Assembly (NCBI GenBank): GCA_021773055.1
Contig: JAJFKV010000017.1
Coordinates: 62,001 to 126,000 of the forward strand
Length of the DNA: 64,000 nt
Reading direction: 5' to 3'
Origin: Woeseiaceae bacterium
Lineage (GTDB): Bacteria > Pseudomonadota > Gammaproteobacteria > Steroidobacterales > Woeseiaceae
The position numbers and the translations under genes were made by a program. Positions 888-14,285 of this stretch are shown in pieces. The notes below the pieces were generated by a model, which made no database searches, had not been told where the DNA came from, and saw nothing but the letters and a program-made list of their open reading frames with translations. The stretch's first letter is position 1; every line of letters starts with the position of its first letter.

Positions 888-958
888 CGGTCGGGGTAGT
901 GATTACTGGAATGGCTCGCTTCGCTGCGCTTTATTTCCTGTAATCACTACCCCGACCG
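888..958. repeat. Long hairpin, copy 1 (22-bp arms, 27-nt conserved loop)
   Basis: The left arm 888-909 pairs with the right arm 937-958 at 21 of 22 positions; the single exception is a T-T mismatch in the CTG triplet third from the loop. The loop 910-936 (starts AATGGCTCGC, ends GCTTTATTT) is identical over 27 nt to that of the hairpin at 14235-14261. It lies between two convergent genes. No U-run follows either arm, so it is not a standard intrinsic terminator. Confidence 0.9.
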
Positions 959-963
959 CCCCA

Positions 964-2028
964 CTATTCATGGTATTTCGGGCTTAGGTCGTGGACTGCG
1001 TCGACCAATGCACCAAGATGGTCAGGATCAATATCCGGTGTGATGCCGTGGCCCAGGTTGAAGACGTGGCCAGGCCCTTTACCGTAGCTTGCCAGCGTAT
1101 CTGCAACTCCCTGACGGATAACTTCCGGTGATTCTCTTAATGTCGCCGGGTCGAGGTTGCCCTGCAGTGCGACTTTGTCGCTGACATATTCGCGAGCGCT
1201 TGCGAGGTCCGTAGTCCAGTCAACGCCCAGTGCATCGCAACCGGTTTCGGCCAGATCCGTCAATAATGGACCCGCGCCCTTCGTGAACAGGATAACCGGG
1301 ATTTTGTGGCCGTCTTTTTCGCGGATCAGGCCATCGATGATTTTTTGCATGCTGGCCATTGAGAATCGTCGAAAATCGTCGCCTTCCAGGGCCGCGCCCC
1401 AGGTATCGAAGATTTGTACGGCTTGTGCGCCGGCTTCGATTTGGGCGTTCAGATATTCGATGGTTGTTTCCGCAACGATATTCATTAGATGATCAAGAAC
1501 GTCAGGGGCCTCTTTTGCGAGCCCTTTTATGTTCGGGAATTCACGACTGGAGCTGCCTTCAACCATGTACGTTCCAACGGTAAACGGACTTCCCGCAAAT
1601 CCGATCAAAGGAACCTCGCCGTTCAGTTCGCGGCGTATGGTGCGCACGGCGTCGAACACGTAACCAAGCTTCTGTTCAACATCAGGCACGCGCAATTTTC
1701 GAATGGCGTCTGCTGTTCGTACGGGGCTCGTGAACTTCGGCCCCTCACCGCTTACGAAATGCAGACCCAGGCCCATTGCATCCGGAACCGTCAGAATGTC
1801 GGAAAACAGTATCGCTGCGTCGAGCTTATAGCGTCGCAACGGCTGCATGGTTACCTCGCAGGCCAGCTCCGGGTTCTTACAAAGACTCATGAAGTCGCCG
1901 GCCTGGCCACGCACCTCGCGATACTCTGGCAGGTATCGTCCCGCCTGACGCATGATCCATACAGGCGTTCGTGATACCGGTTGGCGCATCAAGGCACGTA
2001 GAAAAACATCGTTCTTTAGTTCAGACAT
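964..2028 (-). CDS. hemE: Uroporphyrinogen decarboxylase
   Basis: Cytosolic enzyme of heme synthesis that removes the four acetate carboxyls of uroporphyrinogen III to give coproporphyrinogen III. At 354 residues it has the normal family length. The first URO-D signature (MRQAGRYLPEYR, residues 26-37) and the second region (GFAGSPFTVGTYMVEG, about 143-158) are intact. Start ATG overlaps the stop of pyrF by one base (TAATG), so the two genes are one transcription unit with pyrF first. Its 3' end faces the cupin gene across the conserved-loop hairpin. Confidence 0.97.
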   Translation of the reverse strand: MSELKNDVFLRALMRQPVSRTPVWIMRQAGRYLPEYREVRGQAGDFMSLCKNPELACEVTMQPLRRYKLDAAILFSDILTVPDAMGLGLHFVSGEGPKFTSPVRTADAIRKLRVPDVEQKLGYVFDAVRTIRRELNGEVPLIGFAGSPFTVGTYMVEGSSSREFPNIKGLAKEAPDVLDHLMNIVAETTIEYLNAQIEAGAQAVQIFDTWGAALEGDDFRRFSMASMQKIIDGLIREKDGHKIPVILFTKGAGPLLTDLAETGCDALGVDWTTDLASAREYVSDKVALQGNLDPATLRESPEVIRQGVADTLASYGKGPGHVFNLGHGITPDIDPDHLGALVDAVHDLSPKYHE

Positions 2029-2744
2029 TATGCGCTCACCTGGGATTCAATTGATTCTTGCATGGCTTCAGCCGCCGCACGTGGGCTGGCCGCATCGCGA
2101 ATAGGCCGACCGACGACAATGTAATCGGCCCCATTCGAGAAGGCGGTCTCCACGGTAACGACACGCTTCTGGTCGCCCGTGGGCTTGTTATCAACCGGCC
2201 GAATACCCGGTGAAATCACGAGTAGCTTGTTGTCAACGTGCTCGCGTAGCTTCGGAACTTCGAGACCCGATGAAATCACTCCGTCGCAACCCGACTCGAG
2301 CGCCTGTCGCGCCCGGGACAAGACCAATGCCTCCAGGTCGCAGTCGAAACCAAGATCATCGAGGTCACCACGATCCAGACTGGTTAGCGCTGTTACTCCC
2401 AGAACCTTCAGGGTGTCACCTTTGTTTTCCGCTGCCGCCTGCATCATCGAACGATTGCCGTGAACCGTCACGAATGAGGCACCCCGGTCCTTGAGTTGCC
2501 GTACCGCCGAGCCAACGGTCGCGGGAATGTCGAAAAACTTCAAGTCGCAAAAGACCTTTTTGTCTCGCGCCAGCATCCAGTCCAGTAACTCGAAATACTC
2601 GCCACTCATCATTAGCTCGAGACCAATTTTGTAGAAGCTTACCGCGTCACCGAGTTCGTCGACCAGTGTGCGCGCTCGATTGCAGTCCGGGACGTCCATG
2701 GCGAAGATGAGGCGGTCTTTGTTGGGGATGGGTTTGTGGATCAA
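2028..2744 (-). CDS. pyrF: Orotidine-5'-phosphate decarboxylase
   Basis: Last step of UMP synthesis, decarboxylating OMP. It has 238 residues, which is normal. The catalytic motif DLKFFDIP (residues 67-74, with Lys69 and Asp72) and the phosphate-binding end (ISPGIRP ... GADYIVVGRPI) are present. I chose the TTG start at 2744 because AGGA lies 8 nt upstream; the first ATG (codon 16, AMDVPD) would remove the start of beta-strand 1. It is the first gene of the pyrF-hemE pair. Confidence 0.96.
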   Translation of the reverse strand: MIHKPIPNKDRLIFAMDVPDCNRARTLVDELGDAVSFYKIGLELMMSGEYFELLDWMLARDKKVFCDLKFFDIPATVGSAVRQLKDRGASFVTVHGNRSMMQAAAENKGDTLKVLGVTALTSLDRGDLDDLGFDCDLEALVLSRARQALESGCDGVISSGLEVPKLREHVDNKLLVISPGIRPVDNKPTGDQKRVVTVETAFSNGADYIVVGRPIRDAASPRAAAEAMQESIESQVSA

Positions 2745-2776
2745 AAGTGGTTTCCTGTTGTTTTTGCGGGCGCATT

Positions 2777-13564: not shown

Positions 13565-13592
13565 TCAATTTTTGGGCTGAATTTCGACGCTG

Positions 13593-14204
13593 ATGGGAAG
13601 AAAAACCACTAACGAATCAGTTCGTGAACGACAGGTCGTCGCGCAGGAAGCCGCGCGAATAATTGTCGACCATGGCGTGCGCGATTATCTCGTGGCGAAG
13701 CAAAAAGCTGCCGAGCGTCTTGGTATGAACGGCAGAGGTTCTTTGCCGGGTAATGCCGAGATCGAAGCCGCCGTCAGTGAACACCTGCAAATCTTTGGCG
13801 GAGAGTCACACGAAGATTTGTTGCGTCTGATGCGCACGGCAGCGCTTGCTGCGATGGAGTTTCTGAAGGAATTTTCGCCGCGACTGGTCGGACCGGTGCT
13901 GGCAGGTACAGCGGACGAAAATTCAGCGATCAACCTGCATGTTTTCGCCGATAGCCCCGAGATGGTTGCGATGGAAATCGGCGATATGGGAATACCGTTT
14001 CGACCCTACGAAAGACGCCTCAAGAGTCGCCGTGGGCAAGTCGAAATGTACGCCGGCTTCGAATTCACTCACTGCAACGAGACGGTCCAGGCGACTGTTT
14101 TTCCTGTTGACGGGATTCGGCAGGCGCCAATGAGTCCTATTAATGGGAAGCCAATGAGGCGAGTTGATCTGGATGCGGTGCAGAAGTTGCTTGAGCACGT
14201 ATGA
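13593..14204 (+). CDS. Uncharacterised protein, nucleotidyltransferase-like
   Basis: A 203-residue soluble protein that I do not recognise with certainty. Residues 100-120 (GPVLAGTADENSAINLHVFA) resemble the G-S/T-x-x-x-x-S-D-I-D-L core of minimal nucleotidyltransferases, but both aspartates of the usual SDIDL are replaced (SAINL). If this assignment is right the protein is probably not an active transferase. The N-terminal half is helical and rich in Ala and Glu; the second half has basic segments (RRLKSRRG). It follows ponA by 28 nt in the same direction and could be co-transcribed. Function unknown. Confidence 0.5.
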   Translation: MGRKTTNESVRERQVVAQEAARIIVDHGVRDYLVAKQKAAERLGMNGRGSLPGNAEIEAAVSEHLQIFGGESHEDLLRLMRTAALAAMEFLKEFSPRLVGPVLAGTADENSAINLHVFADSPEMVAMEIGDMGIPFRPYERRLKSRRGQVEMYAGFEFTHCNETVQATVFPVDGIRQAPMSPINGKPMRRVDLDAVQKLLEHV

Positions 14205-14210
14205 CAGCGT

Positions 14211-14285
14211 CGTGACCGGGAGAGCGTTGCCTGCAATGGCTCGCTTCGCTGCGCTTTATTTGCTGGCAACGCTCTCCCGGTCACG
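14211..14285. repeat. Long hairpin, copy 2 (24-bp arms, 27-nt conserved loop)
   Basis: The left arm 14211-14234 pairs with the right arm 14262-14285 at 23 of 24 positions, with the same T-T mismatch three bases from the loop as in copy 1. The loop 14235-14261 is identical to 910-936. Aligned without gaps against copy 1, the arms agree at 12 of 22 positions, and at each of the 10 others both strands changed together. It also lies between convergent genes (the 203-aa gene and gltA) and lacks a U-run. Confidence 0.9.

Follow-up and report, generated by a model that had tools for sequence, protein, structure and literature searches.

Background

Among the dispersed palindromes of bacterial genomes, those closest to the element described here are the repetitive extragenic palindromes (REPs), in which one particular strand is recognised as folded DNA that bears unpaired features (PMC3733652, PMC8266576). 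The present analysis concerns two hairpins with the same 27-nt centre (hereafter, the core) that are located in a 64,000-nt stretch of DNA from Woeseiaceae bacterium (GenBank assembly GCA_021773055.1, contig JAJFKV010000017.1, positions 62,001 to 126,000 of the forward strand). This whole stretch is referred to as the window, and positions are given within it. The two hairpins are members of a dispersed repeat family, and we argue that, on balance, this family is best explained as a non-autonomous, REP-like mobile repeat of a new type that would be recognised via an internal loop on its folded bottom strand, that is, the complement of the strand on which the core is written here.

The classical REP system comprises the GTAG-tagged REPs together with their compound forms (REP doublets forming hairpins, REPINs, and bacterial interspersed mosaic elements, BIMEs) and the REP-associated tyrosine transposase (RAYT, also TnpA-REP). 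Like the family described here, these are short, dispersed, extragenic hairpins that are found mostly after genes and often form head-to-head dimers. Unlike the GTAG REPs, the new family has no conserved tag beside the stem, its conserved part being the central internal loop; its unit is ~85 nt long as compared to 20-40 nt; the sequence of its stem is free; and no linked RAYT was found at the loci fetched for this purpose (see below). Because the defining tag and the RAYT link both fail, we do not file the family as GTAG REPs.

Other known systems share individual features with the family. The CGTC-tagged REPs are dispersed palindromes without a dedicated transposase, and some of their dimers lie inside longer palindromes (PMC3733652). 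Their stems of 8-9 bp start with AT, enclose a loop of 4-5 nt and end in the CGTC tag, whereas the family described here differs in these traits, having an outer stem of ~28 bp and CGTCATGG in some copies only. The attC site of integrons functions as a folded bottom strand with unpaired bases, and its stem tolerates sequence change; the family resembles attC in its folded bottom strand but has no link to an integron integrase. The LIMP and HyLIMP palindromes of the Lobosphaera incisa mitochondrion combine an invariant loop with a long stem, occur in both orientations and are always intergenic, and the HyLIMP stems show complementary changes (PMC4524435); they differ from the family in that they reside in an organelle, the LIMP stems consist of pentanucleotide repeats, and the loop is of 7 nt. 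Finally, template switching creates and maintains hairpins, giving rise to multi-base compensated changes and inverted copies (PMC8794818), but this is a mutation process and not an element family. A literature search, the coverage of which left out most subscription papers, found no report of the hairpin family or of the 12-nt part of its core.

Two hairpins and a dispersed repeat family

The core, AATGGCTCGCTTCGCTGCGCTTTATTT, is found at 910-936 (copy 1) and 14235-14261 (copy 2), on the + strand in both cases. The match is exact, as the earlier note on this DNA had claimed; the window contains no third match when up to 3 mismatches are allowed, and 100 shuffles yielded none. The core of copy 1 is enclosed by the 22-nt arms of an outer stem, 888-909 on the left and 937-958 on the right, and that of copy 2 by arms at 14213-14234 and 14262-14283 (all given on the + strand); in each copy, 21 of the 22 positions are paired, the exception being a T-T mismatch. 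The left arms of the two copies, when compared by eye, are the same at 12 of the 22 positions and different at 10, and all 10 differences are compensated in the opposite arm, which bears out the co-variation that had been reported. The inverted repeats extend past these arms, to 882-911/935-964 in copy 1 (90%) and to 14203-14236/14260-14293 in copy 2 (91%), so that the whole hairpins, assigned to the - strand, span 882-964 and 14203-14293. The bottom-strand fold of copy 1 is apparently conserved. Folding of both hairpins beats that of shuffled sequences on either strand (z from -8.6 to -11.3). The bottom strand of copy 1 folds at -30.5 kcal/mol as DNA and -52.7 as RNA, against -28.2 and -49.0 for the top strand; for copy 2 (fold at 14205-14291), the respective values are -39.1 and -62.2 against -35.7 and -59.6.

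The genome from which the window comes (G000; 3.97 Mb in 89 contigs) contains the core pattern at 12 places with up to 3 mismatches, and a covariance model (R1) built from 66 copies yields 15 matches there, which correspond to 14 distinct places because one match is the antisense of another. Within the genus, the core pattern at up to 2 mismatches is present in 41 of 61 genomes, the window's own included, with the highest count for a single congener (G026) being 46 places; at the same threshold, 0 of 38 genomes from other families match. Across the order, the covariance model finds matches in 55 of 246 genomes (own included) that belong to six families. The core is plain in the copies read from five of these genomes (G153, G112, G168, G215 and G217), which represent three of the other families, and the two remaining families are counted from the model score. 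In a sample of the class that held only three further genomes of the order, the 2 matching genomes out of 369 are the window's own and one congener. Among the matches listed, most of the named records come from metagenome assemblies and carry the label Woeseiaceae, Gammaproteobacteria or Proteobacteria; one matching record labelled Myxococcota is probably contamination. Viral contigs gave no exact core match, and none of the plasmid and phage records contains 80% of a 30-nt core query. The earlier note had named two outcomes as fatal to its interpretation, namely, a lack of further copies or copies with unpaired arms; what was found is that further copies exist and that pairing is preserved in them. 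At one locus from another family of the order (L305, ~1460-1600), part of the core is repeated nearby in the inverted orientation, as if from a rearrangement.

Outer stem, internal loop and inner hairpin

Three parts make up each unit of the family: an outer stem of ~28 bp, which covaries; an internal loop, NATGGCTC/TGCGCTTTAYTT, which is conserved; and a small inner hairpin, which is variable. The stem was assessed in 109 non-redundant copies derived from the 156 copies with 27-nt cores, longer cores being excluded from the stem counts. In this set, pairing at stem positions 5 to 28 lies between 0.61 and 0.95, where the columns would predict 0.36 to 0.75 (for instance, 0.90 against 0.40 at position 9), and approaches the expectation beyond position 30. 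In an alignment (A1) of 66 of the 85 copies that pass 72% pairing among these 109, 83.7% of the cells are paired, as compared to 52.7% upon shuffling and 37-44% upon sliding, and the covariation score is 0.728 against 0.183; since the rows were chosen for pairing, the percentage describes a selected set, and the unselected figures are those for the 109 copies. Outside the 27-nt core, no column of the 66 rows is conserved at 90%. The CTG/CTG flanks with a T-T mismatch to which the earlier note drew attention are indeed present in both window copies but are the trait of one subfamily only, T-T at position 3 being found in 14 of the 109 copies.

The 27 nt had been taken for a loop, and they are constant, but they are probably not a simple loop: judging from variant cores, they seem to hold an inner hairpin (918-924 in copy 1, 14243-14249 in copy 2), which in copy 1 would be preceded by an 8-nt strand and followed by a 12-nt strand. 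Among the variant cores at 176 collected places, which include a few false matches of the loose pattern, the left strand, NATGGCTC, and the right strand, TGCGCTTTAYTT, are constant, and between them stands an inner hairpin that is usually GC-TNC-GC; other forms are AC-TGC-GT, GGC-AA-GCC and CC-TNC-GG, the last accompanied by a linked change in the right strand, and long inner hairpins, such as GCCGCGC-TGT-GCGCGGC, also occur. Thus, the pairs of the inner arms vary while pairing is kept (GC/GC, CC/GG, AC/GT, GGC-AA-GCC, GCCGCGC/GCGCGGC). On the bottom strand, the internal loop reads 5'-AARTAAAGCGCA ... GAGCCATN-3', and the cap is usually GNA between C-G pairs, with a CUUG-capped bottom-strand variant also present among the variant cores. 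The DNA mini-hairpin d(GCGNAGC) is unusually stable, and stable caps are possible in RNA, too. Some cores (at L209, L022, L100 and other loci) contain a 21-nt hairpin-forming insert, TCTCGATCCCGCTTGACGGGA, in both orientations and at two positions; this insert is a repeat within the repeat.

Strand asymmetry of the mismatches

The mismatches that remain in the stems are distributed unequally between the two strands. In 1320 stem cells read on the top strand, A-C and C-A together number 90 against 15 for G-T and T-G, and C-T, T-C and C-C number 56 against 6 for G-A, A-G and G-G; viewed from the bottom strand, these become G-T, G-A and G-G, and A-C or C-T is rare. Counted by copy (84 of the 109, namely, those in which Watson-Crick pairs make up 70% or more of positions 6-25), 53 lean to A-C on the top strand, 4 to G-T, and 27 tie. 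The bias is spread across many columns, and its significance is overstated inasmuch as the copies are related. A G-T (or G-U) pair that is tolerated on the selected folded strand appears as A-C on the opposite strand. The asymmetry of mismatches therefore suggests a requirement for folding of the bottom strand of the element itself, and the bottom-strand fold seems to be what is kept, in support of the earlier suggestion that the folded shape is under selection. Simple cytosine deamination would not account for the bias because both mutation directions show the asymmetry: in comparison with the nearest relative, top-strand G>A changes number 40 against 9 for C>T, and T>C changes 22 against 3 for A>G, whereas strand-biased deamination of the simple kind would produce the former excess only.

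A folded bottom strand could be that of a transcript. Under this alternative, which the earlier note had also offered, the element would be a structured RNA, either a small RNA or a 3' untranslated element, such that the bottom-strand transcript binds a protein via the internal loop. Tolerance of G-U on one strand, a conserved internal loop flanked by two helices whose sequences vary without loss of pairing, the CUUG-capped variant, the strong RNA folds and the location just after stop codons would all fit such an RNA. However, the bias is the same in all contexts, including that where the upstream tandem neighbour transcribes the top strand (23:2; compared to 20:4 where the downstream neighbour transcribes the bottom strand and 59:8 for convergent neighbours), so that the asymmetry goes with the orientation of the element itself and not with how the neighbouring genes are transcribed. 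Furthermore, no column beyond the core and the inner arms is conserved at 90% to hold a promoter, there is no promoter-like site beside the window copies, and no Rfam family reaches the gathering threshold in the window, the weak hits at the hairpins being to microRNA models. The structured RNA is weakened by these observations, and we consider it unlikely. Given that the bias is independent of neighbour transcription and that nothing is conserved outside the hairpin, a DNA strand seems likelier than a transcript; hence we infer that the bottom strand acts as DNA, not RNA.

Placement beside genes

Both window copies are located between convergent open reading frames (ORFs), as had been stated. 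Copy 1 lies downstream of an ORF of 123 aa (505-876, + strand) and faces one of 354 aa (964-2028, - strand), which we take to be the gene for uroporphyrinogen decarboxylase, HemE; copy 2 lies downstream of an ORF of 203 aa (13593-14204, + strand) and faces one of 430 aa (14340-15632, - strand), presumably encoding citrate synthase. For the family as a whole, placement was counted with a codon-scoring script for gene calls, near-duplicates being kept and 21 copies whose locus lacked a gene on one side being excluded. Of the resulting 151 copies, 90 lie between convergent genes, 57 between tandem genes (31 and 26 by orientation) and 4 between divergent genes, whereas the 219 gaps of at least 100 nt at the same loci include 65 convergent, 103 tandem and 51 divergent ones. 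In convergent and same-sense tandem copies, the median distance from the stop of the preceding gene to a point 25 nt outside the core is ~25 nt.

The S10 operon is split by hairpins between two genes that, judging from the protein ends, we take to be rpsJ and rplC (loci L021, L022, L023, L029, L030, L046, L099, L125, L240, L243, L269, L298 and L300), with 489-727 nt between the rpsJ stop and the L3 motif; a hairpin is present in 13 of the 15 distinct readable rpsJ-rplC sequences, which is not a frequency because the presence of a copy was the reason for fetching these loci. In the four stretches that reach that far, the hairpin is followed by a TATAAT box, and two sequences without a hairpin there have such a box as well. 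Downstream of hemE, that is, at the site of copy 1, a hairpin is seen, in either orientation, in 7 of 29 other relatives (by eye; one unreadable), and at least 5 of the relatives that lack it share the same convergent neighbour. At this site, the copies of G014 and G048 are nearly alike in their arms but differ in core type, which points to core exchange.

Such placement recalls transcription termination. Bidirectional terminators, or protectors of mRNA 3' ends, of shared origin would be expected to prefer convergent gaps and nearly to avoid divergent ones, and a hairpin after the rpsJ stop that is followed by a TATAAT box, as in those four stretches, would suit this role. Nevertheless, at least 5 T among the 8 nucleotides after the stem are found in only 3 of 105 cases on the top strand and 0 of 105 on the bottom strand, against 3 of 105 in the control; a scan limited to loops of 3-8 nt found no terminator-like site at the window copies; and a constant internal loop is not needed for these functions. 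Effects of this kind could be a by-product, and we regard terminators or end protectors as a very improbable explanation of the family.

Head-to-head pairs, composites and inverted flanks

Of the 52 close pairs of hairpins, 44 are head-to-head, some places being counted twice. Genome G037 contains about a dozen related composites, ~300 nt in length, that have two hairpins apiece as well as inverted ends and that differ in their flanks. The first hairpin of these composites, compared in 15 copies after two of the 17 aligned rows (of the hairpin-2 type) had been set aside, has 9 different left arms, a length change included, and yet 0 of 349 cells are mismatched; its divergence per site is 0.055 in the stem (equal-length arms) against 0.206 in the spacer. 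Just outside the composites, 6 of 12 pairs show clear flanking inverted repeats, which have lengths of 14 to 45 bp (three of at least 30 bp) and consist partly of the shared element end. Terminal inverted repeats, in combination with direct target duplications, would be expected of a MITE of a DDE transposon. At locus L262, the flanking inverted repeat is 45 bp long, and its right copy takes in the last 14 nt of the right gene, which we take to be murA. The same gene ending is present in the 19 relatives read, with the core found in none of the 19 within the next 330 nt; because the relatives keep the gene end without the core, the left copy at L262 is probably new and would have arisen, during insertion or later, as an inverted copy of the kind that template switching produces (PMC8794818). 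The fully compensated variants in 15 related copies and the inverted copy of a gene end speak for the copying of one arm from the other, which the earlier note had considered.

It might then be supposed that template switching alone is sufficient, with arm copying keeping the hairpins perfect, folding unselected, and only the core either selected or recently spread. The 9 left arms without a mismatched cell and the 45-bp inverted repeat that includes a gene end are consistent with this view, for which there is a published precedent (PMC8794818). However, it leaves unexplained why G-T, G-A and G-G are found on one strand only; the second hairpin of the same composites retains mismatches; and the stem has diverged about one-quarter as much as the spacer. 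Template switching on its own thus appears quite improbable.

In genome G005 (locus L320, ~1043-2640), a 1.6-kb stretch with a 375-aa ORF that has no Pfam match lies between two inverted hairpins; this stretch may represent either cargo or an enlarged version of the element.

Searches for a linked enzyme

Three candidate enzymes were tried and rejected. A linked Y1 transposase of the RAYT or IS200-like kind, suggested in the earlier note, was not found: the core is present at 0 of 30 Y1_Tnp loci, fetched from the 58 places listed and inspected within ~1.5 kb or to the contig end, and a Y1_Tnp match is absent from G034 (95% complete, 16 copies) and G001 (97%, 9 copies). A reverse transcriptase (RVT_1) is present in only 13 of the 73 genomes of the genus, with one each in G037 and G051 and none in G000, G026 or G052. 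An integron integrase scores above the family cut-off in 11 of the 73 genomes, the copy-rich G000, G026, G037 and G052 not among them; below the cut-off, matches appear in 73 of 73 genomes of the genus and likewise in 14 of 14 control genomes.

A proposed mobile repeat with a folded bottom strand

If the family is, as we favour, a non-autonomous mobile repeat, its working form would be the folded bottom strand, with an outer stem of free sequence, an asymmetric internal loop and a short, usually GNA-capped inner hairpin. An enzyme would probably recognise the internal loop on the folded single strand, and the element would be deposited as single hairpins and head-to-head pairs in gaps after genes. 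The sequence of the stem would drift because the stem needs only to be paired; its pairing would be maintained by selection for bottom-strand folding, with the help of template switching, whereby one arm is copied from the other. The family itself, the covariation of its outer stem, the strand asymmetry, the placement and the inverted copies of flanks next to some composites are observed; mobility as such, the enzyme and the chemistry of insertion are what we infer here. A more specific proposal, which we put forward tentatively and hold to be rather doubtful, is that a self-primed hairpin, at insertion or during upkeep, copies the host flank in inverted order and thereby provides each copy with a matched stem of its own, with the internal loop serving as the sole address for a single-strand recombinase; we know of no bacterial precedent for inverted instead of direct target duplication.

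Several observations weigh against the mobile repeat. No enzyme was found for the hairpin family in the above searches, and no transposase was recognised, by eye, among 25 clusters of neighbour proteins common to most loci; those recognised presumably reflect orthologous housekeeping sites (rpsJ/rplC, hemE, cysS) and not a mobile enzyme. The sites after rpsJ and after hemE are occupied in many species, and such widespread occupancy would be equally compatible with mobility, with function and with retention from long ago. A clean empty site whose flanks are intact was not found, the best relative at the L262 test locus being 79% identical, and, with relatives this distant, the inverted copy could post-date the insertion. 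The mismatches retained by the second hairpin of the G037 composites count here as well. The orientation of the copies shows no relation to local GC skew (22:22) and, therefore, lends no support to insertion into the lagging-strand template. With regard to structure, the 37-nt tip alone folds no better than shuffled sequences (z from -0.2 to -1.6), its minimum-energy fold pairs bases other than those of the proposed inner hairpin, and, in the 66 aligned rows, variation is confined to one of the two inner pairs, where two rows differ without loss of pairing. Finally, the conservation of the core is partly ascertainment because most copies were collected with the core pattern, and the copies are not phylogenetically independent, the counts being given without tree correction. 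Taken together, the results partly support the interpretation given in the earlier note.

Other repeats in the window

The window contains a second palindromic repeat, of the GTAGGAGC...GCTCCTAC type, at 5001-5040, 33186-33208 and 61980-62004, which we take to be similar to an ordinary GTAG REP. A small repeat, AAAGGGGTCTGACCCCTTT, and its relatives are found at 17238-17256, 21284-21302 and 56853-56871, and a similar sequence, GGGGTCTGACC, is located at the edge of a composite in L265.

Implications

Compensated changes alone are no proof of a functional RNA. The family provides over a hundred natural hairpins that combine a free stem with a fixed centre and, accordingly, separate sequence from shape in the recognition of single strands. 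The wobble count indicates, with no need for an experiment, which strand is selected, and it could be used on other palindromic repeats. If it is true that insertion makes inverted copies, this would be a new way for bacterial repeats to grow.

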